Positions 2,719-20,436 of a stretch of 27,348 nucleotides of DNA are shown in pieces. The notes under the pieces were generated by a model. It saw nothing but the letters and a program-made list of their open reading frames with translations. It was not told where the DNA came from and did no database searches. The translations under genes were made by a program, and so were the position numbers. The DNA lies in the IMG/VR virus record IMGVR_UViG_3300037558_000630, positions 1 to 27,348 of that record. One strand, given 5' to 3'. Source of the stretch: a virus. The number at the start of each line of letters is the position of its first letter. Position 1 is the stretch's first letter.

Positions 2719-2924
2719 TCCCAGTTGCGGAACCGACCGTCGAAGAACTCCGACGCTGGCCGTATCCAGATCGGCCCAGTTCCATCATACTTCTGGTAAA
2801 TCACTGCACTCTCAAGAGATGACTCGAACAGGCCATGATGCAGGATCTTGTAGTGATTGCCCGTCTTCACGTGGATCCAAAGTTGTTCCGGGTCCGGGTG
2901 GCTGCTGGGATCTTTCAGTGTCAT
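2715..2924 (-). CDS. DUF1653-like small protein
   Basis: A 69-residue protein. After a short polar N-terminus, LWIHVKTGNHYKILHHG, SSLESAVIYQKYDG and IWIRPASEFFDGRF reproduce the usual order of DUF1653: a short beta-barrel reading Y-x-V/I, a (V/I)-x-Y-x-x-L/Y turn and a W-x-R-P-x-x-x-F-x ending. The function of that family is not established. The ATG at 2924 lies inside the upstream reading frame, so the two overlap by 113 nt, an unusually long overlap for this region. A later start is not available without losing the first strand. Confidence 0.8.
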   Translation of the reverse strand: MTLKDPSSHPDPEQLWIHVKTGNHYKILHHGLFESSLESAVIYQKYDGTGPIWIRPASEFFDGRFRNWE

Positions 2925-3129
2925 GGAAACGCAAGTCCTCTATGTTGATATGACCTATCGGGTCTTTGGCTGCGAGATAGTATGGCTGATAGTGAGTTCC
3001 AGCCACGATGTTGCCTTCACTGTCAAGCCCAAGACAAATGCAGGTTCCGTTCGGCTTTTGGGAGACCACGACCCAGCAATCGCTAGGTCCTGGCCCCCGC
3101 CGCGGATATATGTTACCGACCAGTGTCAC
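2812..3129 (-). CDS. Hypothetical protein overlapping DUF1653 gene
   Basis: A 105-residue frame starting with a GTG at 3129 inside the end of the GHKL gene (17-nt overlap). The first 70 residues look like a genuine protein (VGNIYPRRGPGPSDCWVVVS, then TCICLGLDSEGNIVAGTHY and DPIGHINIEDLRFHD), a small beta-rich domain. The last 37 codons overlap the DUF1653 gene in another frame and are Pro/Gly/Ser-rich (PPGPGTTLDPREDG), looking less constrained. The real gene may therefore once have ended near 2925. The C-terminus is uncertain and no family is recognised. Confidence 0.6.
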   Translation of the reverse strand: MTLVGNIYPRRGPGPSDCWVVVSQKPNGTCICLGLDSEGNIVAGTHYQPYYLAAKDPIGHINIEDLRFHDTERSQQPPGPGTTLDPREDGQSLQDPASWPVRVIS

Positions 3130-4261
3130 GCTTCACCAGTTCCAGGATCTTGTCAAACAAGAACTGCTGCATCCCACGGCTCTCGTCGGCGTAACCCATA
3201 GTGTCGTGGATCCACTCCTCATACATGGTGATAGCCAAGAAGTCACGGCCATTCGCCACGGTCTGGCGGGTGATCAGCATCTTGCCATCCTTGGCCTGTG
3301 CGTAGATACCCGGCCCGAGGTTCTCCACGAACGTGAAGTCATGCGGGTGAACAAGACAGTTCAGCGCACGGAGCATGTCACAGGCTTCGGCGACCGTCTT
3401 GGCTTGCTCTTCGTCAAGCTCGAACGTGTCCCAGTTGGTGACCTTGCGGTGCCGATGCAGCATGTCCTTGTTGCGATCGTTCATGCGGGCATTCGCCCGA
3501 TGCTTTTCCAGCGCATCGAGGAATTCCTCGCTGGGGTCATAGCAGTCCGAGAAATCAACGGCAGCTTCGTGACCGTCCCAGTTGGGATCAATGATTTTCT
3601 CAGCGAACGATGGGTCGGCGATGCGAGGCAGGCGCGTGCCGAGCTTGTAGTTCATGTCATACTGAGAAGCCAGCGTGCGGTCTTCGGTCAGTGCCATGTG
3701 ACACGTGAAGTTGTAGGTGAACCGGGTTGGCTTCATCAGCTTGTGAACGCGGACGCCGCGATAATAGACATACTGCGACTTGCCCCGGTGAACTTCTACG
3801 CCATCTCCGACGATCCAGGGTTCGTTCTGCAGAAAGATCTTGCCGCGCTCGGCGTGAACATCGGCGATTTCAGGACCGTTCACGATAAAGATGGTATCGT
3901 CTTCGGTGTAAACGCCGCTGACCTTGCCATATTCGTCCATGGCATTGGAGTAGAGTTCGCGGTATGCCTGCCAGACTTCCCAGTTCTTGCCGAGGTCAGT
4001 GGTGAACCCAAGCTGTTCGTCGCCCATGAAGATCATGTCGAACGACTTGCCGCGGATTTCCTTGGGCCGAGTTTCGAACTTGATGGTTTGCCCATTGGTG
4101 TGAAGCACGACTTCATGCCCAGTGCGCAGGAACGTCGCGATGGCATACTTCAGCCCAGTGCCGAAATAGCCAATCGGGTTGTCGTTGTCCTTGACAGACA
4201 CACCCATTGTCCGGATGACATCCAGGTCAATGTGGCCGCTGTTGGAGAAATAGATAGGCAT
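3113..4261 (-). CDS. Phage GHKL-like ATPase
   Basis: A 382-residue protein. The ATG at 4261 is chosen because GAGGTGA lies upstream at normal spacing; an upstream in-frame ATG at 4303 would start inside the promoter region. MPIYFSNSGHIDLDVIRTMG begins a family of phage proteins with an ATP-binding fold of the gyrase/Hsp90/histidine kinase/MutL type. NPIGYFGTGLKYAIATF (residues 28-44) is a glycine-rich lid, and YRELYSNAMDE (100-110) resembles the N-box in which Glu and Asn hold ATP and Mg. Near the C-terminus MYEEWIHDTMGYADESRG contains an acidic/His motif of unknown meaning. The biological role is unknown. It heads the operon 4261-1910. Confidence 0.8.
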   Translation of the reverse strand: MPIYFSNSGHIDLDVIRTMGVSVKDNDNPIGYFGTGLKYAIATFLRTGHEVVLHTNGQTIKFETRPKEIRGKSFDMIFMGDEQLGFTTDLGKNWEVWQAYRELYSNAMDEYGKVSGVYTEDDTIFIVNGPEIADVHAERGKIFLQNEPWIVGDGVEVHRGKSQYVYYRGVRVHKLMKPTRFTYNFTCHMALTEDRTLASQYDMNYKLGTRLPRIADPSFAEKIIDPNWDGHEAAVDFSDCYDPSEEFLDALEKHRANARMNDRNKDMLHRHRKVTNWDTFELDEEQAKTVAEACDMLRALNCLVHPHDFTFVENLGPGIYAQAKDGKMLITRQTVANGRDFLAITMYEEWIHDTMGYADESRGMQQFLFDKILELVKRDTGR

Positions 4262-4285
4262 TGAATTCACCTCGTTGGTTGCGTT

Positions 4286-4309
4286 GGGGTAGTGCCTTAA
4301 CACTACCCC
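4286..4309. repeat. Perfect 9-bp inverted repeat overlapping -10 of P3
   Basis: GGGGTAGTG (4286-4294) and CACTACCCC (4301-4309) form a perfect inverted repeat with a six-base loop. It covers the -10 element and the probable transcription start of the promoter-like site at 4300-4328. That position suits a repressor operator, or a hairpin at the 5' end of the mRNA. No T run follows, so a terminator is less likely. Confidence 0.7.
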
Positions 4310-4328
4310 GCGAGCGGGCCGGTGAACA
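4300..4328 (-). promoter_or_regulatory. Promoter-like site P3 (TGTTCA-17-TAGTGT)
   Basis: Minus-strand TGTTCA (4323-4328) and TAGTGT (4300-4305) are 17 nt apart, with CGCGGGG just before the -10. It lies five bases after the stop codon of the gene ending at 4333 and about 39 nt upstream of the GHKL start. The leader that follows, AACGCAACCAACGAGGTGAA, closely resembles the leader of the DUF2786 gene. Confidence 0.5.
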
Positions 4329-4332
4329 GCCC

Positions 4333-4980
4333 TCAGTTGTCCGTGGTGATAAAAGAGCCAGACAGCTTGAAAAAGCCGTTCTTGCTCTGGCGAGCAGACT
4401 TCTGCTTGGTGTCAACTCCGATCACCTTGTAGAGCGCCCCAGTGGACAGGTGGACCAGGACGTCGTCAACAGCGACAGTTCCAGGTTTCATCTCGTAGTG
4501 GCGCTGTTCGCCATCGTTGTTGCCGCCCTGGAACCGCTGGATGCAGACGGTGTGAGGGGTGACTTCTTCGATCTCGTTCTTGTCGAACGTCTCAACTTCA
4601 CCGCCGCTGCCTTTCATTTCCAGTGCGATCTTGCCAGTTGACGTCCGGGTCAAGAACGTGCCGAAACGCGGCTTGTCTTCCTTGGTTTGATAGAGTTGAT
4701 TTGCCATTGCGGCCTCCTCTTGAGGATCGTAGAACACGAAGTCATCGGCTTCTCGCCATGTGCGATGTTCGGTTCCATTGTTGTAATGATAGGACATCGC
4801 CGAAGCATACATGAACCGGATATACCAGCCTTTGCGAGGACGAGCCCATTTCTTAATCTTGGGAGGTGATGTCTCCCGACTTGCACAGTCGAAATAATCC
4901 ACTTCCAAGACGATGATGGGGGACTTGCCAGTTTTCAACCGGACTTTGTCCCCAGCCTTGAAACGTGGCGGATCTAACAA
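4333..4980 (-). CDS. Two-domain hypothetical protein with internal start site
   Basis: A 215-residue protein. The start is a TTG at 4980 because a strong AGGAGGT lies nine bases upstream, inside the frame of the preceding lipoprotein gene, which it overlaps by seven bases. The N-terminal domain starts FKAGDKVRLKTGKSPIIVLE, a pattern typical of small SH3/KOW-like barrels. At residue 92 an internal ATG (4707) is preceded by AGAGGAGG at six-base spacing, so a second 124-residue product MANQLYQTKEDKPRFGTFL may also be made. The C-terminal half has another barrel-like stretch (VAVDDVLVHLSTGALYKVIG). No family is recognised. Confidence 0.7.
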   Translation of the reverse strand: MLDPPRFKAGDKVRLKTGKSPIIVLEVDYFDCASRETSPPKIKKWARPRKGWYIRFMYASAMSYHYNNGTEHRTWREADDFVFYDPQEEAAMANQLYQTKEDKPRFGTFLTRTSTGKIALEMKGSGGEVETFDKNEIEEVTPHTVCIQRFQGGNNDGEQRHYEMKPGTVAVDDVLVHLSTGALYKVIGVDTKQKSARQSKNGFFKLSGSFITTDN

Positions 4981-5150
4981 GGTTTGATTACCTCCTCTTC
5001 TATGGTGTAGGCGCATCCACTTGGAATATACACCGGATCATAGAACCAACCCAAGCCGACAACATAAGGATCGACGACTTGGATGGGTTCAGACGGAGCG
5101 CAGGCACTCAGCAACAGAACAATCAGTAATGCGCCCCGAAACTCAGTCAC
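4974..5150 (-). CDS. Small lipoprotein (58 aa)
   Basis: A 58-residue protein starting with a GTG at 5150 that overlaps the stop of the upstream lipoprotein gene as GTGA. MTEFRGALLIVLLLSAC is a signal peptide with a lipobox (L-S-A-C), so Cys17 would be lipidated and the remaining 41 residues anchored to a membrane. The mature part is short and acidic/aromatic (VVGLGWFYDPVYIPSG) and has two further cysteines near the end. Ala and Pro after the Cys suggest outer-membrane sorting if the host is Gram-negative. Its small size recalls outer-membrane spanin subunits, but it sits in an early region away from lysis genes, so I do not assign it. Superinfection exclusion is another possibility. Confidence 0.8.
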   Translation of the reverse strand: MTEFRGALLIVLLLSACAPSEPIQVVDPYVVGLGWFYDPVYIPSGCAYTIEEEVIKPC

Positions 5151-5695
5151 TTGTTCCGCCCAGGAGCGTTCCCGGAGTTGCCCCCAGCATTTCCTCCGTG
5201 AGACGGATCAGCCCGCCCTCCCGGATCGTTCTCGGCGTTGTTATTGCCTCCGGAGTTTCCAGGTGCGTCCTGGTCACCGTTTCCGAAGCCATTGTTGCCC
5301 TGAGGTCCGCCACGATCAGGTCCGCCTTGATCACCACCAGGACCACCAGTGTCGCTATCCCCACCAGGATCGCCACCACCATCAGGGCCACCACCGTTCC
5401 CTCCGGTGCTCGGTCCAGACCCGCCCGGTGTGTCCGGAGACCCACCAGACCCGCCGCCATCAGGAGAGCCGCCGTTGCCATCACTATCGGAATCAGAAGG
5501 AGATCCCACCCCATTATCGCCATTACGGTATTCCCCACCCGGCGATGAAAGGGGCACGATGACGGGTGGCCGAGCACACTCGTCTTCCTGCGTGCCGAAC
5601 TTCGTCCATTCCTGGGCTTCCCGATCACAGATCGGCTGGGGCGCGGCACACGCTCCCAAGAATGCCAGGAAACTCACTCCTGCTAGAAATCGCAT
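5147..5695 (-). CDS. Lipoprotein with long Gly-rich low-complexity tail
   Basis: A 182-residue protein starting MRFLAGVSFLAFLGACAAPQ from the ATG at 5695, eight bases after AAGGAG; a nearer ATG at 5701 is too close to the ribosome binding site. The lipobox is L-G-A-C with Cys16, so this is a predicted lipoprotein. A short globular part (ICDREAQEWTKFGTQEDECA) contains two Cys. From about residue 55 to the end the protein is almost only Gly, Pro, Asp, Asn and Ser, for example GGSPDGGGSGGSPDTPGGS, and looks disordered. It is translationally coupled to the next lipoprotein. Function unknown; a surface-exposed spacer or envelope-interacting factor is possible. Confidence 0.8.
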   Translation of the reverse strand: MRFLAGVSFLAFLGACAAPQPICDREAQEWTKFGTQEDECARPPVIVPLSSPGGEYRNGDNGVGSPSDSDSDGNGGSPDGGGSGGSPDTPGGSGPSTGGNGGGPDGGGDPGGDSDTGGPGGDQGGPDRGGPQGNNGFGNGDQDAPGNSGGNNNAENDPGGRADPSHGGNAGGNSGNAPGRNK

Positions 5696-5708
5696 GTTCA
5701 TTACTCCT

Positions 5709-6425
5709 TTACCCTGCGATTGCTTTACGGCCACCAGGACCAGACTTCAGCGGGCGATTCAGGTTGACCCTATCACCAGCTTTGCGCCCCTCCGCCATAG
5801 CGGACCCATCAGCGCGGATACCCCTGCTGCGACCCTGCCGCAGTTGAAGTCCAGGGAGCATCTCTTTCATGCTAGCCTCAATGACGGCATACTTCTTGAC
5901 CACGAGGTCGGTGCCAGTGCTGTCAGTTTTGACTTCACGGGCTTCCATCAGCTCACGGATTTTCTCGTTGACACGTTCGGCCATGCCCAGCATGAACGAC
6001 CAGTATTCGGTGTGACGCGAGACGCCCGGACGCGGCGGGTTCTTGGGCAGGTAGTCCTTCCACTCGCGGTTCATGGAGTCATGCACAAGTTTCAGCAGAA
6101 ACTCATACATCTCAACGTCGCCGTTGAACCCAAAGCCATTGGAAGTTTGAGTTCGGCTGGAATACCACGTCACAACGCCGCAGAACTCACCGATGGTCCT
6201 GCTACACCATTTCGCGCACGGGTGCTGCGTTTTGATGCCATACTTGAATTCGCCAGCCCGCATGTCGCGCTTGGCTTCAGCGACCTCCAGGTCTGCTTCG
6301 GTCAGGCCATGCTCGGCCATCAGCTTGTCGGCTTTCGCTAGAGCGGCCATTACTTCAGCTTCGGAAGCTCCGCGCTCTTCGATCATGTTGCGCAGGGCCA
6401 GGATTTTGGCACGGATATCAGACAT
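5709..6425 (-). CDS. DUF2786 domain protein
   Basis: A 238-residue protein starting MSDIRAKILALRNMIEERGA. The first 45 residues fit DUF2786: a helix, then ASEAEVMAALAKADKLMAEH and GLTEADLE. The middle region (CAKWCSRTIGEFCG, GFNGDVEMYEFLLKLVHDS) matches the part that usually follows DUF2786 in phage and actinobacterial proteins. The C-terminus is basic and Gly-rich (RQGRSRGIRADGSAMAEG). The function of the family is not established. The ATG at 6425 is preceded by GAGGTGAAC and a leader nearly identical to that of the GHKL gene. It heads the unit 6425-4333. Confidence 0.85.
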   Translation of the reverse strand: MSDIRAKILALRNMIEERGASEAEVMAALAKADKLMAEHGLTEADLEVAEAKRDMRAGEFKYGIKTQHPCAKWCSRTIGEFCGVVTWYSSRTQTSNGFGFNGDVEMYEFLLKLVHDSMNREWKDYLPKNPPRPGVSRHTEYWSFMLGMAERVNEKIRELMEAREVKTDSTGTDLVVKKYAVIEASMKEMLPGLQLRQGRSRGIRADGSAMAEGRKAGDRVNLNRPLKSGPGGRKAIAG

Positions 6426-6461
6426 TGTTCACCTCGTTGGGTTGGTTGCGTTATTGAGACA

Positions 6462-6490
6462 ATACTAACCCGTGAGGCTTGCGGTGATAA
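6462..6490 (-). promoter_or_regulatory. Promoter-like site P4 (TTATCA-17-TAGTAT)
   Basis: Minus-strand TTATCA (6485-6490) and TAGTAT (6462-6467), spacer 17 nt, with CACGGGT before the -10. A 5-bp inverted repeat, TATTG-TCT-CAATA on the minus strand, covers the predicted start region. The surrounding AAATAAGACTTATCACCGCAA is shared in part with P1 and P2, making this one of the clearest members of the set. Confidence 0.55.
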
Positions 6491-6502
6491 GTCTTATTTC
6501 TC

Positions 6503-6524
6503 TATACGCTCGCACGCGCGTATA
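6503..6524. repeat. Inverted repeat downstream of the 6537-6797 gene
   Basis: TATACGC (6503-6509) and GCGTATA (6518-6524) form a 7-bp inverted repeat with an eight-base GC-rich centre, between the stop of the gene at 6537 and the promoter-like site at 6462-6490. It may act as a transcript end or as an operator. There is no T run to mark a classical terminator. Confidence 0.45.
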
Positions 6525-6536
6525 TATAATGTCGGA

Positions 6537-6797
6537 CTAGCTGTAGTCATTGACTGGTGAACCGTCTGGGTGGCAAATGTAGACTCCGAACCACTCTTGG
6601 CCGTCCATAATGTCGAGATACTGGAGGTTCGCATTTACCCAATCGTAGAACCGAGGATCACGGATCCATTCATAGCGGAACGTAAATTCTGTGCGCTGCT
6701 CTTTGATGAAGATCGCCCAGCGCTCCTTGGCGTCGATGGGGACTTTCGCCCCCATCGCCTTGCGGCACTTCTCCCGGAGGATCTCATGCGTGATCAT
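6537..6797 (-). CDS. Hypothetical protein (86 aa)
   Basis: An 86-residue protein starting MITHEILREKCRKAMGAKVP at the ATG at 6797, which overlaps the TGA of the upstream gene (ATGA). It is rich in Trp and other aromatic residues (ERWAIFIKEQRTEFTFRYEW, DPRFYDWVNANLQYLD). No motif or family is recognised. It is the last gene of the ligase unit. Overlap with its neighbour and codon structure argue that it is real. Confidence 0.7.
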   Translation of the reverse strand: MITHEILREKCRKAMGAKVPIDAKERWAIFIKEQRTEFTFRYEWIRDPRFYDWVNANLQYLDIMDGQEWFGVYICHPDGSPVNDYS

Positions 6798-7147
6798 GTC
6801 GGGATAAGACCTTTTGCGATCTGGTTGTTGCGCCGCCGCTCTTCTCGTGCCATAGCACGCAGAGCTTTGAAATCACGGCGCTCAGCAGCGCGGCGAACCT
6901 GCCTGGAAGGTGGACGCTCGATAGTCGGAATATCGCGGTTCGCTTTCTGCTTCTTGCGGAGCCGCTCAGCAGCCCGCGTCTCACCAGCCCGTGCAGGCTC
7001 AGGGTTTGCGAAGGTGATGTTCCAGTTGTTCATGATCAGCGTCTCTGCCGTTGTCAACGTCGGCGACGGGAACGCCTCGGTTTTCTTGACCCGCTTCTTC
7101 TTCTTGCGGTTCGGCATCAGCCGCTTGAATTTCTGCCACAGTTTCAT
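6794..7147 (-). CDS. Basic hypothetical protein (117 aa)
   Basis: A 117-residue, very basic protein starting MKLWQKFKRLMPNRKKKKRV. It has a Lys-rich N-terminus, a linker with Pro/Thr (FPSPTLTTAETL) and an Arg-rich C-terminal half (RPPSRQVRRAAERRDFKALR, REERRRNNQ). Most of the chain is likely helical or disordered. The charge suggests nucleic-acid binding, but no domain is recognised. Its ATG shares one base with the stop of the DNA ligase gene (TAATG), so it is probably translated with the ligase. Confidence 0.7.
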   Translation of the reverse strand: MKLWQKFKRLMPNRKKKKRVKKTEAFPSPTLTTAETLIMNNWNITFANPEPARAGETRAAERLRKKQKANRDIPTIERPPSRQVRRAAERRDFKALRAMAREERRRNNQIAKGLIPT

Positions 7148-11735: not shown

Positions 11736-12206
11736 CTAACCTTTCTCCAGGATAGGCTTGACTGGTCCGCGTTTCTGGTCTTGATACTTTCCTTCGTAGC
11801 CGACAGTATCATCGTCCACAAAGTGAAAGATCACCTGAGCGATAGGCATTCCACGCTCAATAGTAAGAGCCTCGTTGCCATGATTTGTCAGCTCTAGTGT
11901 GAGCCAGCCCTGCCAGCCGGGTTCTATCACAGTGTTCTGACACGCCAGCCCGAGACGCGCCCACGTTGACTTATCGTGGACAATTCCCAGGACATCAGGC
12001 GGCATGACGAACCTCTCGATCGTAGAGGCCAGCAGGAACTGACCGGGCAAGAGTTGAACGGCAGGCATGTGACCATGCTCGTCGAACTCTACCCTGACAT
12101 CATAGCCCGCTGGTCCACAGCCGAAGGTCATACCTTTGTGCCGAGTCCGACTATAGAATGGATCCATGATGCCGAGCTTCTGGATGGTCTTACCACTGAG
12201 TATCAT
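11736..12206 (-). CDS. dcd: dCTP deaminase
   Basis: A 156-residue protein starting MILSGKTIQKLG. The ATG at 12206 follows AGAGGT; an upstream in-frame ATG lies inside the previous gene. GCGPAGYDVRVE, then FLLASTIERFVMPPDVLGIV, HDKSTWARLGLACQNTVIEP and GWQGWLTLELTNHG are the dCTP deaminase/dUTPase trimer motifs. The S-T-W-A-R (Ser80, Arg84) and L-E-L (Glu105) residues fit the deaminase active site rather than plain dUTPase. It converts dCTP to dUTP, or to dUMP if bifunctional, and so supplies dUMP for the thymidylate-synthase homologue further up the operon. It is the last gene of the long operon. Confidence 0.88.
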   Translation of the reverse strand: MILSGKTIQKLGIMDPFYSRTRHKGMTFGCGPAGYDVRVEFDEHGHMPAVQLLPGQFLLASTIERFVMPPDVLGIVHDKSTWARLGLACQNTVIEPGWQGWLTLELTNHGNEALTIERGMPIAQVIFHFVDDDTVGYEGKYQDQKRGPVKPILEKG

Positions 12207-12208
12207 GA

Positions 12209-12934
12209 TTACCTCTCGTAAGTTGCGAGCGTTTGCCACAGGCTATCGTTGTCAAGCCGCGGAGGGATCTTGGCGGTGAACCCTTCCGAAAGCATGAAGG
12301 TATGGAGTTCCTTTGCTTCCTTCAGGCCGAAGCCATTGATGTGGATTTCCAGTGCGACTTGGCGCAGGTCGGGATACGCGCCGATCAGAGACTGGATGAA
12401 CTCATACTCGGCACCCTCGCAGTCGATCTTGGCGACATCGATCACAGGATGCTTGCTCTTGAGAGTGTCCACGCCCATGAAGCTGATAGGCACGGCCACA
12501 CGGCCACGGCGAGGCGTCGTGCTGGAGTTGCCGGGGTTCTTGCCAGTCTTGCTGAGATACATCTCACCTTCGCCACTTGGCCCGCTACGAAGCGCAGCGT
12601 TGTAGACTGTCGCAGCGTTGAACCCGTCTGCTTCGTAGGGGCTGACGTTGAGCGTGAGCATTTTCCAGTTGTTGATTTCCGGCTCCAGAGCGATGACGTG
12701 CAGCGGCTTTCGCTGGAGCGCCCAGCAGGTGAAGCACCCGATGTTCGCACCGATATCAAGAACAACGCGGCCTTCTACATCGAGTTGACCATAGCTGCGG
12801 TTGATCTCTTTCATGACATAGTGGTCATAGGTTCCGACCCGGCCAATCATCGGCTGAGAAAAGCCCTTGGCCTCCATGTTGAATGTCTCCCGCTCTTCGA
12901 ACTCACCGTCCACGAGGACGCCATACTTTTCCAT
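12209..12934 (-). CDS. FkbM-type SAM-dependent methyltransferase
   Basis: A 241-residue protein. RVVLDIGANIGCFTCWALQR (about 56-75) is the SAM-binding motif I; IALEPEINNWKMLTLNV is motif II with the acidic ribose-binding Glu; IDVAKIDCEGAEYEFIQSLI (about 165-184) is the D-x-E-G-x-E motif characteristic of FkbM methyltransferases. These usually methylate hydroxyl groups of sugars or other small molecules. Its position, sharing a base with the DNA polymerase stop and in one operon with a glycosyltransferase and hypermodification protein, makes methylation of a modified base or its sugar a reasonable hypothesis, not a demonstrated role. A role on a host glycan is the alternative. Confidence 0.85.
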   Translation of the reverse strand: MEKYGVLVDGEFEERETFNMEAKGFSQPMIGRVGTYDHYVMKEINRSYGQLDVEGRVVLDIGANIGCFTCWALQRKPLHVIALEPEINNWKMLTLNVSPYEADGFNAATVYNAALRSGPSGEGEMYLSKTGKNPGNSSTTPRRGRVAVPISFMGVDTLKSKHPVIDVAKIDCEGAEYEFIQSLIGAYPDLRQVALEIHINGFGLKEAKELHTFMLSEGFTAKIPPRLDNDSLWQTLATYER

Positions 12935-15012
12935 CAGTCTACTCCTTTGATCTCGCCCCAGCTTGGGCCAACTTCCGTGTCCACTTTGAACGGCACCCAG
13001 AGCTTGCCGGGATGCGCGTCGATGATACAGTCTCGCATGATATCGCCTGCCGCCTTGGCCTCAGCGACTGAACCATAGCTTCCGTCAGTCTCATCATGCA
13101 CCTGCAACTGCAAGAAATAACCAGCGCGATCTAACTCACAGAGAGCTAGCTTGGTCTGGTCTGCGCTGCTTCCCTGGATGATCCGGTTCAGAGCCTTGTG
13201 CGTATAGTCGAACGTCCCGTCATCACGACGCTCAAAGTTCAACCTGCGGCCCAGGATGGTGAATACACAGCCACGAGCCTCAGCTCTTTGGGTCGCAGCC
13301 TTGGCAAGTTCACGCACATACGGAACTTCATTGTCAAAGTTATCGAGGATTTCCTGACCCTCTTCGCCAGCCATCTCACGGACGAAGCCTTTCTGGATTT
13401 CCATTTTGTAGGCCATCGCCTCTCGTTGAGTATCGAAATACTCAACTCGGCGATCTCTACCCCAGCCGTAAGTCACACCCCAGCGAGTAGGCTGGCCGAT
13501 ATCGTGACAGAGCTTGGCTCCACCTTCACCGTAACACAGCCCAAGGAAGATGTTCTTGGAGTAGCCGCGATGAACCTTATACTTTCCTTTCGGATCGTTC
13601 AAGAACCATTGGTCAACCTGCTCGTCACCATAGACCAGTCGGGTCATCATATCGTGGTTGTCTGTGCTTGGGTCGTCTTGGTATCGCTTGGCAGCTTCCC
13701 TCGCTCTGGGTAGATCCATAACCGCCGCGAAATGAGTCGTCCATCTAGGCTCTTGCTGACTATAGTCATTACAGCCCCAGATTGCTCCCTCTTCAGGTAT
13801 AAAGATCTTGCGCCACTCGCCAGCGATCTCAGGGTCTCGATCAGGGCTTGGCTGCTGTTGAAGGTTAGGGTCTGCGGCACTGAGCCTGCCGAATCGAACT
13901 CCCACAGTCTCACCGTCGGAGTCAGACATTGCCATTTGTCTAAACGAGCAATGCAGTCTTTCTCCGACAGCATACTTCCGTATAGACGATGCGAACGTAG
14001 TCCTGAGTTTGTTAACCTTCCTAGCTCGTAGAATAGCTTGCGGAACCACATGGTCGCTGCCTCCCAATAGGAACTTGTCAATAGATGGTGCGCCCTGCGC
14101 CGTGCGAGGTATGGTCATGCCAATGGCTTCAAGAGCCGGGGCAAGAGCGCCGGGTTTCCATACGTCTCCGAACCCAATGCGGATACCTGTCTCGTGACGG
14201 ATCAGGTCTAGTGCTTCACGCTCTTCTCCCTCGGTCCAACGCTCGATCTCTTCTAGCTTGTCGAAGTCAATTCGAACACCACGCCGACGCATACGAACCA
14301 GCACTGGTAGAGTTCGGCTCTCCAAGTCCCAGATCTGCCGGAGACCATCTCGTTCAATGATCTCTTCCTGCTTACGCAAGATCTCTAGAGGGGACGCAAC
14401 ATCTTGCTCTCCGTATTCACCGACATACCTGCCGGGTAGTCTCCAGAGACCTTTCTTCGGATCAAGACCGTGAGCCCTTGCAGCTTCCAGAAGTGTTTGT
14501 TCATCCTTAGCCTCGATCCCATGTCGCTTTCCGATAGCGTCCAGGGAGTAGCTGCGATGGAGTTCGTAGATGATTGGGTCTGCAAGCTGAATGTCGCGGA
14601 ATGTCGCATCTTCGTGCCATTCAAATCCGTCGTTATATCCATAATCAATATCGTAGGCAAGGTTGGCTCCCACGAACTCTCCAGTAAAAGAAGCAATTTG
14701 TTCTCTAAGATACCTAAGAGTGCCTTGGAGATCGAGGTTGTCGCCGCCTTCATGGCGGATCGGGAGGTAGTGTTTTGGGCCTCCGTCAATCGCGAACGCC
14801 CACCCAACGGTATATCCGTCACGAAGACTTCCGGGTCCCAGCTTGTTTCCAATAGATGGGTCTCGCGTTTCTGCATCAATTGCAATCCTTTTAGCGCCCT
14901 TCCAACTGGGCAAATCAGATAGTGACGGGGGACGCCACTCTGCCTCTGGCATGAAAAACCCAAGCTGAAGCGCCCCACCGTCGTTCGGGTCAGATTTCTT
15001 GCGTGCGACCAT
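12934..15012 (-). CDS. polA: Family A DNA polymerase with 3'-5' exonuclease
   Basis: A 692-residue replicative polymerase. The exonuclease motifs are present: IAIDAETRD (Asp46, Glu48), GANLAYDIDYGYND (exo II around 116-128) and YGEQD (Asp204). Polymerase motif A is CNDYSQQEPRWTTHFA with Asp416; motif B is HRGYSKNIFLGLCYGEGG with Arg482 and Lys486; motif C is LQVHDETDG with Asp640-Glu641. FGRLSAADPNLQQ (about 374-386) is the usual template-binding segment. There is no 5'-3' exonuclease domain. An insertion after motif B (about 500-535, RWGVTYGWGRDRRVEYFD) is typical of phage versions. It shares a base with the DUF3310 gene upstream and the methyltransferase downstream. Confidence 0.95.
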   Translation of the reverse strand: MVARKKSDPNDGGALQLGFFMPEAEWRPPSLSDLPSWKGAKRIAIDAETRDPSIGNKLGPGSLRDGYTVGWAFAIDGGPKHYLPIRHEGGDNLDLQGTLRYLREQIASFTGEFVGANLAYDIDYGYNDGFEWHEDATFRDIQLADPIIYELHRSYSLDAIGKRHGIEAKDEQTLLEAARAHGLDPKKGLWRLPGRYVGEYGEQDVASPLEILRKQEEIIERDGLRQIWDLESRTLPVLVRMRRRGVRIDFDKLEEIERWTEGEEREALDLIRHETGIRIGFGDVWKPGALAPALEAIGMTIPRTAQGAPSIDKFLLGGSDHVVPQAILRARKVNKLRTTFASSIRKYAVGERLHCSFRQMAMSDSDGETVGVRFGRLSAADPNLQQQPSPDRDPEIAGEWRKIFIPEEGAIWGCNDYSQQEPRWTTHFAAVMDLPRAREAAKRYQDDPSTDNHDMMTRLVYGDEQVDQWFLNDPKGKYKVHRGYSKNIFLGLCYGEGGAKLCHDIGQPTRWGVTYGWGRDRRVEYFDTQREAMAYKMEIQKGFVREMAGEEGQEILDNFDNEVPYVRELAKAATQRAEARGCVFTILGRRLNFERRDDGTFDYTHKALNRIIQGSSADQTKLALCELDRAGYFLQLQVHDETDGSYGSVAEAKAAGDIMRDCIIDAHPGKLWVPFKVDTEVGPSWGEIKGVD

Positions 15013-15704
15013 TACTGCCTCTTATGAAGGGTGAAGTCTGCTTCGGGACGTTCAGGGTAGCCTTCTTCGGCAGCGTCATACCCAAACGGGTGTTCCATGC
15101 CTAATGCCGACTGCTCAGAGCGCCCTGTGGACGCGCTGGATGCCGCGCCCTGCCCTACCCTACCACCAGCACGTCCAGGGGCCTCCTGCCCCTGCTCTGC
15201 GTGCGCTACGGCAAGCTCCCGCACCGCCTGCGCCCGTGCAATGGCAAGGCTGAGGTCCACGTCGTTCTGCCAGCCGCTTGCGGCCCACATGAACTCGGCT
15301 TCCACGCCCTTGATACCGTTCGCGTCCAGCCACATCTGCGTCTGCTTGGCAGCGAACTCTTCGTGCAGCGGGTCTTGGAACAGAGACCGGTTCGGATACC
15401 GACCGTCGGCCCATGCCTCTTTGGCCTTGATCAGATAGTGGATTGCTTTCTCCACATCTTGCACGCCATTCTTGCCGCGCCAGCGCGTGACATACTTGGT
15501 CGCCGCACTTTCAAGGTAGCCGAGCCGAATGTTGATGGCCCAGTCCCAATGCTGATAATCGCTCTGGTAGTGAGAGCCACCGACCTGCATCATGTTCGCA
15601 ACTGTTTTCATATCTGGATCCTGATTTACATAGTGTCTGTCTGGTCCACCACATTCGCACATGCGTTTGTCGTGACCACATTGATCGCAATTACTGTGAC
15701 CCAC
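15012..15704 (-). CDS. DUF3310 protein with N-terminal Cys cluster and palindromic insert
   Basis: A 230-residue protein starting with a GTG at 15704 that shares its G with the upstream TAG; CGGAGA lies seven bases before. The N-terminus NCDQCGHDKRMCECGG has four Cys (6, 9, 16, 18) arranged like a small zinc ribbon, which supports this start. VGGSHYQSDYQHWDWAIN, then GYLESAATKYVTRWRGKNG and DVEKAIHYLIKAKEAW is the DUF3310 domain found in many phages, linked in databases to nucleotide metabolism but without a firm activity. The C-terminal EQGQEAPGRAGGRVGQGAAS region is low in complexity and is encoded by the palindromic element at 15108-15185, so it looks like an in-frame insertion. Confidence 0.85.
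   Translation of the reverse strand: MGHSNCDQCGHDKRMCECGGPDRHYVNQDPDMKTVANMMQVGGSHYQSDYQHWDWAINIRLGYLESAATKYVTRWRGKNGVQDVEKAIHYLIKAKEAWADGRYPNRSLFQDPLHEEFAAKQTQMWLDANGIKGVEAEFMWAASGWQNDVDLSLAIARAQAVRELAVAHAEQGQEAPGRAGGRVGQGAASSASTGRSEQSALGMEHPFGYDAAEEGYPERPEADFTLHKRQ
15108..15185. repeat. Palindromic element, copy B, inside the DUF3310 gene
   Basis: The left arm GAGCGCCCT (15118-15126) plus GGACGCGCTGG (15129-15139) pairs with CCAGCACGTCC (15166-15176) plus AGGGGCCTC (15177-15185): 17 of 20 positions pair, with a two-base bulge and a 26-nt loop. On the minus strand the loop reads GGTAGGGTAGGGCAGGG, a potential G-quadruplex. Bases 15108-15126 are the exact reverse complement of 8512-8530. In the same orientation the loop and right arm also resemble copy A. 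The element is read in frame as part of the DUF3310 protein. Confidence 0.65.
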
Positions 15705-16261
15705 TACAAGTCTCCGAGATCAGGCAGCATGGACCAGTCGTCACCGAAGCTCTCCCAGTATGCGTCAAGCACAGCAGGAGCGAACCGGGCAGCATCACGC
15801 TTCACATATTTGTGAATACGTTCAAGCATGACTTCCATGTTGCGGTTGCCGATATGGATCTGGTCCCGACAGAACAAGGCCAGTTCGAAGATGTCCAAGC
15901 CAGCGAGCCACATAGCTTCGTCTTTGCTGAGGGCAATGGCATGGTCGTAGCCCAGCGTGTCCACGAGGATGTCGTGCTCTATTTGGGCGAGGTTGTCTTT
16001 GTCTACAACGCCGAACCATTTGGGCGGAGCCGGAATATCACCAGTCAGCCGCTCCGGTGCATCGTGTTCAAGGATAGCCCAAACGAGAGGCAGCGGTGCA
16101 TCGGGCCAGAGGATGCGAAGCATGGACAGCATGTTGAACTTGTGAATGCCGACGTTGTATTCGCCGATAATCGGGACGGTGTGGCAGCGGCGAACCGCCC
16201 CTGCCTCTCGCATGAACTTGATCTTGCGCGTTGTCGTTGTCGCGTGCTGATATACATTCAT
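15704..16261 (-). CDS. HD-domain nucleotidase (YfbR-like)
   Basis: A 185-residue protein. RRCHTVPIIGEYNVGIHKFN (24-43), ILEHDAPERLTGDIPAPPKW (63-82) and LAGLDIFELALF with Asp123 give the metal ligands His40, His66, Asp67 and Asp123 of HD phosphohydrolases related to 5'-deoxynucleotidase YfbR. The RR-x-H-T and TGDIP signatures are typical of that group. It should remove phosphate(s) from deoxynucleotides; the substrate cannot be read from the sequence. Related HD enzymes in some phages deplete one dNTP to favour a modified base, which fits the neighbours here. It is linked to the thymidylate-synthase homologue by an ATGA overlap. Confidence 0.85.
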   Translation of the reverse strand: MNVYQHATTTTRKIKFMREAGAVRRCHTVPIIGEYNVGIHKFNMLSMLRILWPDAPLPLVWAILEHDAPERLTGDIPAPPKWFGVVDKDNLAQIEHDILVDTLGYDHAIALSKDEAMWLAGLDIFELALFCRDQIHIGNRNMEVMLERIHKYVKRDAARFAPAVLDAYWESFGDDWSMLPDLGDL

Positions 16262-17286
16262 TGCGCTCTCCGTTCAAGCCATTCTACACATGCCTTGCGC
16301 CAATCAGGAGCAAGGATCTGGTGAGCAAGTTCCAGCGCCTTGTCGTAGTGCAGCGGGTCTTCACGGTTTTTCCATGCGTGCCAGGATTGCAGCATCGGCA
16401 CGGCTGTTTTCTTGAAGAACTTGTCGCGCAGGCCGATAGCAGGACCAACGTCCATGAACATTTCCAGATCTTGGAACCAGTCCTCAATTGGACCATTCAC
16501 CATCGGCAACGGCGAAACTTCGCCAAGCTCATATGGATCAAAGCCGGGGCTGATGTCAAACAGACCAGCGTGCTTCTCGAGAGTTGCATGATACCCATGG
16601 AAGTTCGTGCTGACCTGCCAATAGCCGCCCATCGGCACACCGATCCATGCGGCCATCACTTCCTGCATCATAGAGAAGTGAACTGCGTTCGCACCATAGG
16701 CACCCCAGATCATGTCGTTGCTGCGATTGAACACAGTCATGTCCAGCTTGCCATACGGGTTCACACGCAGCGTGCAGATCAGGTTGCAAGGGAAATCCTT
16801 GCCGTTCAGGCCGAGGTCGCTCTCTACGTCCCACATTTGCAACACGACCCGCCTGTCGTCTGGGTTCTGCCGCAGCAGGTTGGCGATCGTCTCCAGTTGA
16901 TCGATCACGCCGACTTCACGCTTGATGCCATCGGGCATCTGCTCATGAACGCCGAACCAGCCGCGCCACCGCTTTCCGTAGCCACCGTGGAAAGTGACAC
17001 CGTCATCGCTATAGTTCGCGATGTTGCTGGAGAACTGGCTGATCCAGTCCACATCATTTCGGCCTGCGAGCATCCATAGACCTTCCATGAAGTGGAAGTA
17101 TGGGTTGGCGTCCCGCTCTGCGTAGAACAGGACGCGCTCCTCCGGGTGCTTGTAGTGAGTGGTGACTGGTCCTGGGAACACCCGGACAGGACCATTCCGT
17201 GAGTCGCGTTCAACGCCTTCTGCTTTCAGGGCTTGCAGCCCAATGAGAAGGGCGTCGTTCACGCCGCGTGCGCTGATGACTTTCAT
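16258..17286 (-). CDS. Thymidylate synthase homologue / possible dUMP hydroxymethylase
   Basis: A 342-residue protein of the thymidylate synthase fold. TFHGGYGKRWRGWFG (98-112) is the YG-x-x-WR loop, DDRRVVLQMWD (143-153) the phosphate-binding Arg pair, and KDFPCNLICTLRVN (163-176) the catalytic Cys167. FNRSNDMIWGAYGANAVHFS (186-205) carries the R-S-N-D motif and an Asn (200) where dCMP hydroxymethylases have Asp, which points to dUMP as substrate; NFHGYH follows at 228-233. The residue after the catalytic Cys is Asn instead of the usual His, as often seen in phage relatives. It would make dTMP or 5-hydroxymethyl-dUMP. The ATG at 17286 overlaps the glycosyltransferase stop. Which reaction it performs is undecided. 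Confidence 0.88.
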   Translation of the reverse strand: MKVISARGVNDALLIGLQALKAEGVERDSRNGPVRVFPGPVTTHYKHPEERVLFYAERDANPYFHFMEGLWMLAGRNDVDWISQFSSNIANYSDDGVTFHGGYGKRWRGWFGVHEQMPDGIKREVGVIDQLETIANLLRQNPDDRRVVLQMWDVESDLGLNGKDFPCNLICTLRVNPYGKLDMTVFNRSNDMIWGAYGANAVHFSMMQEVMAAWIGVPMGGYWQVSTNFHGYHATLEKHAGLFDISPGFDPYELGEVSPLPMVNGPIEDWFQDLEMFMDVGPAIGLRDKFFKKTAVPMLQSWHAWKNREDPLHYDKALELAHQILAPDWRKACVEWLERRAQ

Positions 17287-18569
17287 ACGAGAACTCCATA
17301 ATGGTCGAACATCAGATCGTCGTATTTCTGATGCAGGTTGGGATCAACGGCTCCAGTCTCCGTATGGATGTCACCGTTTGCGAGGTTGATAACCCTGTTC
17401 GCTACAGCCTTCCGGTCGAACTGGAGCAGGATATCGTGGGCTGCGTCCTGGAACTTGCGAGCCTGCATTGCAGACATGTGGCTCGTCTCCAGAATGATGT
17501 CAGCGTAGTCCTGCGGGTCGCGTGCATCATCAAGCGGAACATAGTGCTGATCAGGCACGAACAGGCTTGTCCCCATGCCTCGCTTGTGAGCCACAGGCAC
17601 CGCGCCACGGATCATAGCGTCCACGGCCACACGGTTCCAGTGTCCGCCGATCTTGCTGTATTTCTTGGACCAGCTTGGATCAACCAGAACCCGAGCCATG
17701 TGCAGCCATTCGTCCACGTCTGCTGTCGGCCAGTAGTCGTGATACTTCATGCCGTTCTCCAACGCCACGTCCCAGAACTTGCGGGTGTGAAACGGCTTGT
17801 CCGGATCGTCGTGGAAATAGGCAGGCTTGCACTTGTCTTCGCTGGTCATGTATTGATACTCGATCCCCTTGCCAGCGACTTCGCGCAGTTCTCCCGGCAT
17901 ACGAGGCGGCATGTATGCGATAGACTGCACCAGTTCATGGACATGCTTCCATGCTTTGAATGTCTGCATGTTGACAAAGCCAGCGTGCTTGTCTTCCCAG
18001 TCGTTGATAGTGCGAATCGGCTTGAACTGCGGGTTCACCACCAAGGCACGCGGAATAGGAAAGATGTCGGCGGAGTTGAGCGCACATTCGTGAACACAAG
18101 CCAGCCCAGACAGATGCTCGGCAACGTGATACAGATGCAGAGCATTGCTCTTGGCGTTGCCATCGTGAATGAACGCAACCTGCTTGACCTCTGGCTCCAG
18201 TGCATAGAGTTCAGGCCACTTGTCGTTGCCGAGTTGCTGCTTGTTCTTGGGAGGAACTGGCACTGTCCAGATCACTAGATCGTAGTGGTTCAGGATGTGC
18301 TTGGCATTTGCAAGACCTGCCGAGGTCTTATAGGAGAGGCGGGCAGACTTCGGGAAGTTCCAGCCTTTTCCTTGGGCGAATGGAATGCCGCTGGGTCCAC
18401 CGTGTTCAAAGTTTCCCGAGCGTGCTTGGCCGTGAGCGTTGTCCGCGTAGACCAGTTCGTAGAGATGCGCTTCGTGTCCGAGATCTTGGAAGCCCCCAAT
18501 CAACTGTTCGGTGTGATTGATAATGCCGCCGAGATCCATGCACGAATGCAGCGCGATAGCTATTTTCAT
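17283..18569 (-). CDS. GT-B type glycosyltransferase
   Basis: A 428-residue protein starting MKIAIALHSCMDLGGIINHT at the ATG at 18569, six bases after GGAGC; an earlier in-frame ATG at 18620 lacks a binding site. The N-terminus is the nucleotide-sugar transferase-like Rossmann start, with the Gly-Gly loop and HTEQLIGGFQDLGHEAHLYE. The C-terminal half has HWNRVAVDAMIRGAVPVAHK, the (N/E)-x-x-x-D/E-AM-x-x-GxxPV motif of GT-B enzymes, followed by DDARDPQDYADIILE. A sugar acceptor cannot be named. Lying directly before the thymidylate-synthase homologue and close to the hypermodification protein, it is a candidate DNA-base glycosyltransferase; cell-surface glycan modification is the alternative. 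Confidence 0.8.
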   Translation of the reverse strand: MKIAIALHSCMDLGGIINHTEQLIGGFQDLGHEAHLYELVYADNAHGQARSGNFEHGGPSGIPFAQGKGWNFPKSARLSYKTSAGLANAKHILNHYDLVIWTVPVPPKNKQQLGNDKWPELYALEPEVKQVAFIHDGNAKSNALHLYHVAEHLSGLACVHECALNSADIFPIPRALVVNPQFKPIRTINDWEDKHAGFVNMQTFKAWKHVHELVQSIAYMPPRMPGELREVAGKGIEYQYMTSEDKCKPAYFHDDPDKPFHTRKFWDVALENGMKYHDYWPTADVDEWLHMARVLVDPSWSKKYSKIGGHWNRVAVDAMIRGAVPVAHKRGMGTSLFVPDQHYVPLDDARDPQDYADIILETSHMSAMQARKFQDAAHDILLQFDRKAVANRVINLANGDIHTETGAVDPNLHQKYDDLMFDHYGVLV

Positions 18570-18627
18570 GATGAGCTCCAGGTTATGCAGTATGGCCCAC
18601 CATAGCGGCAGGCCACACAAAAGACAA

Positions 18628-18828
18628 CTACTGTTTTGTCTTCTTGAACGCCATGATGAGGATTATCAGAGGCGTGAACCCGACGAACAAAAAGCCGAAG
18701 GCTGCGACCAGCGGGTGCATCTTGGGCTTCTTGCCCTTGACGATCTGGTCGGCATACCACCCAATGAACAAGGCATACATGCCGAACCAGTAAATCGCCA
18801 GCCAGAGAACCCAGTCAGGTAGGAGCAC
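18628..18828 (-). CDS. Two-helix small membrane protein
   Basis: A 66-residue protein. The longer frame begins far inside the upstream gene and is not credible there; a GTG at 18828, eight bases after GGAG and overlapping the upstream stop by 14 nt, gives a sensible product. LLPDWVLWLAIYWFGMYALF and VAAFGFLFVGFTPLIILIMA are two hydrophobic segments joined by a basic loop (DQIVKGKKPKMHP), and the tail FKKTKQ is basic. It is a predicted inner-membrane hairpin with both ends on one side. Size and topology resemble small holins or membrane-anchoring peptides, but the location between DNA-modification genes does not support a lysis role. Confidence 0.7.
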   Translation of the reverse strand: MLLPDWVLWLAIYWFGMYALFIGWYADQIVKGKKPKMHPLVAAFGFLFVGFTPLIILIMAFKKTKQ

Positions 18829-19705
18829 GATACTTGCTCCGCGGCTTACCCTGCCCGAGCCTGACCCGTTCATACTTGTCGAACTCACACAAGCCGAACT
18901 GGATATCAGTTGGAGACAGGGTGAACTCATGCCCAAAGAAGTTCGCCTGCTCATGCCAGAGCCACATGATGCAGGAGAAAGCCTTGTCGTTCTTGAGAGG
19001 CTTTGCTGAGTCGTCTCCGAGAACACGGGCTGCTCCACGCAGAGCACCGGGGCCGATAGGCGTCCAGTCGTTCCAGTCGGCAGGGAAGGACATACGCTCG
19101 TTGTGGGCACGGTTTTCCCAGAAACCAGTATAGGTCGTGTCCAGCAGAACTTCCTTGGTCATGAAGCCAGTGCCTCCGAACCCTTGAATCTGCATCATAC
19201 GACGAGCCACCTTCTCCCAGGACTGAGTGGTCTGTGCCAGCTTCACGATCTCCGGCGTCGCTTCCCACAAAGCCTTGAGAAAGTAATTGACCACCACTTC
19301 TTGTTTCGGTGCCGATATGCCCTGATTTGTGATGACATACGCCCCGGTGAATACTCGCTCACGGTTTGCAAGTCGGTCCGTCGCGGTGTCCTCGATGAAC
19401 TCAAAGTCGAACTCCTCGTAGTTGTTCCAGCCGATCGCCGATGCGAACTCGTAAGTCCCAAAGTAGCGGAACGTTGCGCAGTTCATGAGGATTGCACGGC
19501 GATCATCATCGTAGTTCGGTGTGTAGAACCGTTCTCTCAACTCCATGCTGGTTCGGTCGTGTTGTCTCCGAACGTTGGTGAATTTGAAGGTCTGAAGAAT
19601 GTGGTCTTCAGTCCACGGAAAGAAATCGCCCGCCTCCTTTCGAAGGCGGACGTTCTCGCGTTCAGTGAGGTAATCAAAGAACGCTGGTGCGCGAGCAACG
19701 CTCAT
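18815..19705 (-). CDS. Thymine hypermodification family protein (5-hmdU kinase helical / amino acid:DNA transferase group)
   Basis: A 296-residue protein. AFFDYLTERENVRLRKEAGD, PWTEDHILQTFKFTNVRRQH (30-49), FTGAYVITNQG, FGGTGFMTKEVLLDT, GPGALRGAARVLG and the C-terminal CEFDKYERVRLGQGKPRSKY are, in that order, the motifs of a helical family known from phages with hypermodified thymine. Relatives are named 5-hmdU DNA kinase helical domain, alpha-glutamyl/putrescinyl thymine pyrophosphorylase, or amino acid:DNA transferase. Such proteins act on 5-hydroxymethyluracil already in DNA. I cannot say which subgroup this belongs to, and no P-loop kinase domain is fused. It shares a base with the preceding gene (TAATG). 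Confidence 0.8.
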   Translation of the reverse strand: MSVARAPAFFDYLTERENVRLRKEAGDFFPWTEDHILQTFKFTNVRRQHDRTSMELRERFYTPNYDDDRRAILMNCATFRYFGTYEFASAIGWNNYEEFDFEFIEDTATDRLANRERVFTGAYVITNQGISAPKQEVVVNYFLKALWEATPEIVKLAQTTQSWEKVARRMMQIQGFGGTGFMTKEVLLDTTYTGFWENRAHNERMSFPADWNDWTPIGPGALRGAARVLGDDSAKPLKNDKAFSCIMWLWHEQANFFGHEFTLSPTDIQFGLCEFDKYERVRLGQGKPRSKYRAPT

Positions 19706-20436
19706 TACTCAGCGGCCTTGGCAGCGGCTTCCTTCTCGGCAGCCTTTGCCTTCTTGGCGGCTTCGCGTTCAGCAGCTTTCGCCGCCTTGGCTTCCTCGCG
19801 TTCCTTTTTCTTGGCTTCCCGCTCGGCCTCGCGGGCAGCTTTCGCTTCCTCGCGCTCCTTGCGCTGCCGTTCCTTGGCGACGTCGGGGTCTTCGCGCCCG
19901 TGCTTCTTATACCATGCGGCACGCCGCTCGGCATACTCTTCGTCGTTGGCCGGAACGACCTGGACGTAGCCCTGCTTCTCCCAGTTGTAGATGTCCCAGG
20001 GAAGGGTGCCTTCGCCCTCGATCGCGTCGATGATCATCATGCCGTCCTTGTAGTTGCCCGAACGGTGAGAGCGATCTTCCTCGCCGTCGAACGGCTTGAC
20101 GATCTTCATCGTGTCGAACATCTTGCGGGTCGGACGCTTGACGTGCTGGGCTTCGGCGGGCTTCGCGAGCTTGCGCTCCTTCGGCTCCTTCTTGGCCTTG
20201 GCTTTCTTGGGCTTCTCACCCTCGCCAGCTTCGTCGGACGCAGACGCTTCGTATTTCTGAAGCGCCTTCATGGTCTGGTCGACCGCGGTCGCATGATCCT
20301 TGAACTGCTTGACCGACGCCACGCCGAGGTTCGACGCGATGAGGTTGCGCAGCGAGAGCAGGTCTTCGACAGACATGTTCTCCAGGTCGGCGCGATTGTA
20401 GGATTTGTCCAGGAATTGGATTGCTTCGGTGCTCAT
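19705..20436 (-). CDS. Charged protein with Lys/Ala/Glu-rich helical tail
   Basis: A 243-residue protein starting MSTEAIQFLDKSYNRADLEN. The first 65 residues are helical (SVEDLLSLRNLIASNLGVAS). A basic linker (KPKKAKAKKEPKERKLAKP) precedes a compact middle region, PTRKMFDTMKIVKPFDGEED followed by DGMMIIDAIEGEGTLPWDIY, that looks conserved. The last 70 residues are a repeating KEREEAKAAREAEREAKKK pattern, a long charged helix resembling histone H1-like tails or coiled coils. DNA binding or scaffolding is plausible. It is the first gene of the long modification-replication operon. The family is not recognised. Confidence 0.75.
   Translation of the reverse strand: MSTEAIQFLDKSYNRADLENMSVEDLLSLRNLIASNLGVASVKQFKDHATAVDQTMKALQKYEASASDEAGEGEKPKKAKAKKEPKERKLAKPAEAQHVKRPTRKMFDTMKIVKPFDGEEDRSHRSGNYKDGMMIIDAIEGEGTLPWDIYNWEKQGYVQVVPANDEEYAERRAAWYKKHGREDPDVAKERQRKEREEAKAAREAEREAKKKEREEAKAAKAAEREAAKKAKAAEKEAAAKAAE

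Follow-up and report, generated by a model that had tools for sequence, protein, structure and literature searches.

A predicted kinase-less thymine-hypermodification operon with a glycosyltransferase beside HMUDK_hel in an IMG/VR virus

The IMG/VR virus record IMGVR_UViG_3300037558_000630, a virus fragment of 27,348 bases (the whole stretch analysed, hereafter the window), carries on its minus strand an operon for what is probably a branch of phage thymine hypermodification without a kinase, one that would glycosylate 5-hydroxymethyluracil in DNA. The well-studied hypermodifications derived from 5-hydroxymethyldeoxyuridine (5-hmdU), such as those of phages M6, ViI and phiW-14, are thought to phosphorylate 5-hmdU in DNA (PMC6449724). 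Here, a GT-B glycosyltransferase (GT) stands between a homologue of thymidylate synthase (TS) and a protein of the HMUDK_hel family, where M6 has a kinase. This swap recurs in about 100 environmental phage contigs, and the thymines of these viruses are probably sugar-coated. A glycosylating thymine-hypermodification system is the best-supported reading of the operon, which belongs to a variant found widely among phages.

A glycosyltransferase in the slot of the M6 kinase block

As read from the sequence, the gene content and order of the window are collinear with gp41 to gp71 of Pseudomonas phage M6, the replication and thymine-hypermodification half of a phage whose modified base is 5-(2-aminoethyl)deoxyuridine (5-NedU; PMC6449724). 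Common to both are a helicase, three small genes, a Dda helicase and ribonucleotide reductase, then a variable slot, and after it TS, an HD-domain protein, a DUF3310-type protein, DNA polymerase A, a VRR-type nuclease, a regulator and a primase. Between ribonucleotide reductase and TS, M6 carries DUF3489, DUF7300, the amino acid:DNA transferase ADDT (PF18724), a pyridoxal phosphate (PLP) enzyme, a radical S-adenosylmethionine (SAM) enzyme, the P-loop 5-hmdU DNA kinase (PF18748), HMUDK_hel (PF18723) and Nmad5; the window has at this place a 243 aa protein, HMUDK_hel, a membrane peptide and the GT. HMUDK_hel alone is kept from the M6 set. The operon therefore resembles those of M6-type phages (Mesyanzhinovviridae) in its collinearity, TS-type dUMP hydroxymethylase, HMUDK_hel, HD-domain protein and family A polymerase, but differs in that the GT replaces the block of ADDT, PLP enzyme, radical-SAM enzyme and kinase. 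An FkbM methyltransferase and a dCTP deaminase follow the polymerase, and no M6 homologue was found for either. All genes named in the original prediction were recovered at its coordinates on the minus strand with intact frames (Table 1), and the overlapping operon it described stands, with 1-4 bases shared at 19705 and by the pairs GT/TS, TS/HD, HD/DUF3310 and polymerase/FkbM. Megablast of the operon against phage records gave no match.

The GT-B assignment, first made by eye, is backed by the family and by the predicted structure. Taken alone, the window GT has a weak match to Glycos_transf_1 (PF00534, E 0.011, below cut-off); 21 of the 22 members of its family match this profile, with a best E of 4.7e-9. 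Its AlphaFold2 (AF2) model (pLDDT, the model confidence score, 91.7) has a clear GT-B fold, with two Rossmann-like domains and a Glycos_transf_1 C-terminal domain. Foldseek neighbours of the model include glycogen synthase (3fro, E 3.5e-12), the T4 alpha-glucosyltransferase AGT with DNA (1y6f, E 7e-12) and HepE, and two further AGT entries among the PDB neighbours carry DNA with a 5-hydroxymethyluracil (HMU) base. In a profile alignment of low confidence (hhalign probability 27%), the invariant pair His135-Asp136 falls on His114-Asp115 of AGT. We were not able to find the window GT in named phages by tblastn. Only five close IMG/VR loci with this GT were available at first, more being reached via HMUDK_hel neighbourhoods, and a scan of a genome collection returned a single 11.9 kb contig of a metagenome-assembled genome (MAG). 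A window-type GT (34%) lies at 4344-5519 of locus L193; the contig was assigned to a Flavobacteriaceae MAG and is possibly of phage origin.

Neither the PF18748 kinase nor ADDT was found in the window or in any of its eight close IMG/VR relatives; both are present in M6, Sonora, FP1 and RHph_TM26. An alternative kinase family, PF18751, was likewise not found in the window or in the seven relatives tested, and these seven, scanned for PF18748, PF18751 and PF18724, include records of 59, 52 and 67.7 kb. In the 67.7 kb relative, which has terminase, portal and tail genes, strict Walker-A motifs occur in no open reading frames but those of the large terminase and the Dda helicase. Beyond these, 21 further contigs of 52-74 kb with a GT beside HMUDK_hel (GT-type) had neither a PF18748 match nor an above-cut-off match to ADDT, and all four kinase-type control contigs have both genes (one kinase below cut-off). 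We also found no PLP or M6-type radical-SAM gene near HMUDK_hel in the GT-type loci. The remark that no P-loop 5-hmdU kinase is visible in the operon is thus upheld as far as profile and Walker-A scans reach, also in the long relatives.

Exchange of partners around HMUDK_hel

The window protein suspected of belonging to a hypermodification family indeed falls by profile search, above cut-off, in the 5-hmdU kinase helical family HMUDK_hel and not in an unrelated one. Twenty-one residues are invariant among 46 relatives, and they are common to kinase-type and GT-type members. A PDB search and a Foldseek run with the AF2 model (pLDDT 94.9) gave no PDB match, and in a viral fold library the model matches other HMUDK_hel proteins and, weakly, an amino acid:DNA transferase.

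We assembled 157 HMUDK_hel loci (L numbers) from two IMG/VR profile scans and from annotated phages, removed known duplicate contigs, and counted partner genes within 6 kb of HMUDK_hel. The loci do not count as independent samples and each IMG/VR scan gives its nearest 80 matches, so that the numbers bear on exclusivity and not on how often each arrangement occurs in nature. A GT-slot gene is present in 104 loci (TAGT in 64, the GT-B family of the window in 30, GT4c in eight and GT57 in two, the last two being unverified as glycosyltransferases and counted apart). The kinase is present in 38 loci, 29 of them with ADDT, and neither in 15, of which 13 also have no TS nearby. Not one of the 157 loci, as sequenced, has a slot GT together with the kinase. 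Attempts to establish GT4c as a glycosyltransferase did not succeed.

TAGT is a DNA-glycosyltransferase family. Its assignment was confirmed by Pfam in all 22 sampled proteins, and tblastn links it to the beta-glucosyl-HMC-alpha-glucosyltransferases (HMC, hydroxymethylcytosine) of T-even phages, which adjoin dCMP hydroxymethylase. Solitary TAGT has been reported in 288 of 753 genomes, with a function yet to be defined (PMC13216743). One phage with this arrangement, grown in culture with B. iodinum ATCC 15728, is the Brevibacterium phage LuckyBarnes (NC_047851, L191), which carries TS-TAGT-TAGT-HMUDK_hel in one run at 2801-6816, and in which PF18748, PF18751 and ADDT were not found. Its genome report lists a hydroxymethylase, called dCMP-type, and two glycosyltransferases (PMC6588365); contrary to that label, the LuckyBarnes TS carries the dUMP-type Asn in our alignment (see below).

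The phylogeny of HMUDK_hel points to repeated exchange. An IQ-TREE phylogeny of 92 HMUDK_hel proteins requires at least 13 changes of partner class and at least three between kinase and GT, all three forced by well-supported (starred) branches; FastTree, with 98 rows, gives 15 partner-class and five kinase/GT changes. These changes suggest that unrelated enzymes have entered the slot on several occasions, with HMUDK_hel and TS retained, a pattern that supports the glycosylation step of the original prediction.

HMUDK_hel is named after the kinase yet persists without it, and must therefore serve something common to both routes. The simplest proposal is recognition or flipping of 5-hmdU in DNA, and the main alternative is that it carries out an enzymatic step of its own. 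We lean, by a little more than even chances, to a broader view: that HMUDK_hel is not a kinase domain but a universal partner for 5-hmdU DNA, and that many mostly uncultured phages pair it with interchangeable glycosyltransferases and no kinase step, giving glycosylated, sometimes O-methylated, base-J-like thymines.

Several further arrangements were seen at these loci. In Bacillus phage Goe26 (L190, 5044-6954) the PF18748 kinase and HMUDK_hel are fused in one protein of 636 aa. Microbacterium phage Lucky3 (L192, 1353-2823) has HMUDK_hel right after a PF18751 P-loop kinase, apparently a second kinase type in the same slot. A family of 320-350 aa proteins with the motif SPxNRxYExLS fills the GT slot in L068, L074, L075, L082, L083 and L084; a tested member had no Pfam match and its profile no match to a solved structure, and it is possibly an undescribed glycosyltransferase.

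Target base, proposed pathway and alternatives

The TS homologue was correctly recognized at the outset (PF00303, E 1.8e-19; phrog_5131, E 3e-118). It shares about 50% identity with proteins of M6-like phages that carry the annotation deoxyuridylate hydroxymethyltransferase, and its best PDB match is the CMP hydroxymethylase MilA. The protein has the catalytic Cys167 and a dUMP-type Asn200, and the equivalents of E. coli Trp80 and Trp83 are replaced. The catalytic Cys occurs in every one of 141 aligned TS proteins. At the position of E. coli Asn177, Asn is present in each of the 140 phage proteins besides T4 gp42; that dCMP hydroxymethylase differs there. Asp179 of gp42 determines the choice between dCMP and dUMP (PMC6400193). 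Given these active-site residues, the base should be of uracil type and the TS is likely a dUMP hydroxymethylase with 5-hmdUMP as its product, which favours thymine over cytosine as the modified base, as originally proposed. Cytosine was rejected as the target on the dUMP-type Asn in all 140 proteins.

We infer each reaction, the donor sugar and the methylation of the sugar as follows. The dCTP deaminase would feed the dUMP pool, from which TS would make 5-hmdUMP, a specificity predicted from its active-site residues, and the HD enzyme may deplete the competing dTMP and dTTP. The phage polymerase would incorporate 5-hmdU from 5-hmdUTP, by analogy with M6-type phages. After replication, the GT would move a sugar from a host nucleotide sugar onto the 5-hydroxymethyl oxygen, without phosphorylation, and HMUDK_hel, constant across kinase and GT partners, may recognize the DNA or the base for it or be a co-enzyme that it requires. 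FkbM could then O-methylate the sugar, and the product would be a base-J-like glycosyl-5-hmdU.

The methylation step is plausible but weaker, and comes from the co-occurrence of FkbM, found near HMUDK_hel in 19 of 104 GT-type but 0 of 38 kinase-type loci (Fisher p 0.002, uncorrected for phylogeny) and directly between HMUDK_hel and TS in eight loci. A radical-SAM/SPASM family distinct from the M6 enzyme also lies between HMUDK_hel and TS, in the GT-type loci L050, L056, L058, L066, L074 and L075, while a nucleotide-sugar epimerase occupies the slot in L051 and L055 and an NTP-transferase-like gene in L060. Together with FkbM, these are the genes that sugar synthesis and tailoring would need. 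A search of three long window relatives for a donor-sugar epimerase found none. At 10716-14167 of L060 the slot from HMUDK_hel to TS holds TAGT, an APH-like kinase, the NTP-transferase-like protein and Nmad5, a candidate for a more complex sugar modification.

A number of points weigh against glycosylation without a kinase. Both the modified nucleoside and the acceptor of the GT are predictions from sequence, and in the fold comparison glycogen synthase and HepE score much as AGT does. With PF18748, no kinase is detected in phiW-14 and that of PaMx11 just barely, and Lucky3 uses the other kinase family; a very divergent kinase outside the window is therefore conceivable. That HMUDK_hel has the same invariant residues beside kinase or GT is also compatible with a separate enzymatic step of its own ahead of glycosylation. 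Because the window is a fragment, and the HMUDK_hel phages M6, FP1, Sonora and TM26 do have the kinase and ADDT, the virus might make an M6-like amino-acid-type hypermodification with both enzymes encoded elsewhere and the GT added on top or unrelated. We hold this to be very unlikely, as both are missing from near-complete relatives and from the 21 long GT-type contigs, and GT and kinase exclude each other throughout the loci.

It is also improbable that glycosylation takes place before replication, on 5-hmdUMP or its triphosphate, rather than on DNA: TAGT and AGT relatives act on DNA, and the polymerase would need to accept a bulky dNTP. Such a route is suggested by the clustering of the operon genes with nucleotide-metabolism genes and by phage SP-15, whose dihydroxypentyluracil is made before DNA synthesis (PMC5977210), but proteins of the hel type are part of pathways whose substrate is 5-hmdU in DNA (PMC6449724). 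The GT might instead act on host surface glycans with the membrane peptide, in seroconversion or superinfection exclusion, leaving HMUDK_hel and TS just to make 5-hmdU DNA; lipopolysaccharide and glycolipid GT-B enzymes score well and the two-helix peptide adjoins the GT. However, the peptide is missing in many relatives, the slot between HMUDK_hel and TS is refilled by unrelated families including the DNA glycosyltransferases of TAGT, and it alternates with a DNA-modification enzyme, the kinase, so that we give this explanation little credence.

Neighbouring genes and relation to known systems

The remaining operon genes largely bear out the functions first proposed for them. The polymerase belongs to family A and is 49% identical to M6 gp62, and the DUF3310-type protein is the positional equivalent of M6 gp61. 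For the HD nucleotidase the YfbR-like assignment is weak but consistent, with a PHROG match and the same position as M6 gp59. FkbM (68 bits against a curated cut-off of 37.7) and dCTP deaminase are both above their curated cut-offs; the identity of the latter holds, and its start is more likely ATG 12206 than GTG 12239. The two-helix membrane peptide is present, but its extent was corrected, probably to 18628-18828 with a GTG start. It is confined to close relatives and absent from many GT-type loci (e.g. L038, L040, L041 and L054), and was rejected as a core part of the module. The 243 aa protein has no Pfam or PHROG match; it shows 71-82% identity over most of its length in relatives and partial similarity to M6 gp49. 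Elsewhere in the window, 5147-5734 encodes a protein of 195 aa that begins like a signal peptide and has a long tail rich in Gly, Asp, Asn and Ser; it is barely conserved among relatives.

Table 1. Genes of the predicted operon in the window
Feature	Position	Strand	Evidence
dCTP deaminase	11736..12206	-	TIGR02274 E 6e-28, PF22769 E 2e-22
FkbM-family methyltransferase	12209..12934	-	TIGR01444 E 1e-18
Family A DNA polymerase	12934..15012	-	PF00476 E 2e-35, phrog_17 E 3.5e-90
DUF3310-type protein	15012..15704	-	phrog_5839 E 2e-26, PF11753 E 0.001
HD-domain nucleotidase	15704..16261	-	YfbR-like E 0.005, phrog_6047 E 1e-34
TS homologue, predicted dUMP hydroxymethylase	16258..17286	-	PF00303, phrog_5131
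GT-B glycosyltransferase, 428 aa, proposed 5-hmdU-DNA glycosyltransferase	17283..18569	-	PF00534 (family level), AF2, Foldseek
Two-helix membrane peptide, ~66 aa, GTG start	18628..18828	-	Conserved in 5 close relatives
HMUDK_hel / aGPT-Pplase1 protein, 296 aa	18815..19705	-	PF18723 E 3.1e-35
243 aa protein, Lys/Glu/Ala-rich tail	19705..20436	-	One-base overlap with HMUDK_hel gene

Phage T4 (gp42, AGT, BGT) resembles the window in having a TS-family hydroxymethylase beside a DNA glycosyltransferase and a polymerase, and in the AGT-like GT-B fold; unlike in its cytosine pathway, the window TS is dUMP-type, the base would be uracil and HMUDK_hel is an extra, constant partner. The pelagiphage HTVC023P-type cluster has the TAGT version of the neighbourhood, with TS, aGPT-PPlase1 and a beta-glucosyl-HMC-alpha-glucosyltransferase; the accessible part of that report notes the co-location and a possibly broader function, and does not report the absent kinase, the exclusivity of GT and kinase or the GT-B version (PMC9599517). 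The proposed product, an O-glycosylated 5-hmdU, is of the same class as base J of kinetoplastids, but base J arises by oxidation of thymine in DNA, whereas here a TS homologue would make the precursor before replication. No TET/JBP-type thymine dioxygenase was found among the scanned proteins of the window, itself a fragment. Glucosylated 5-hmdU was unreported in phages as of 2019 (PMC6449724). YerA41 (PMC9023294) and SP-15 (PMC5977210), compared by modified base alone, also have a sugar on a thymine-derived base, but in YerA41 it is a probable oligosaccharide of ~1 kDa on T and in SP-15 glucose on dihydroxypentyluracil. We did not find the kinase-less branch described as a pathway in the literature covered, which left out some key subscription papers.

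If correct, the kinase-less branch would add glycosyl-5-hmdU to the DNA chemistry of phages and would predict new restriction resistance as well as bases that Type IV restriction or DNA glycosylases could newly target. It would also be a source of DNA glycosyltransferases for uracil-type acceptors, and the unexplained HMUDK_hel family would gain a directly testable role.

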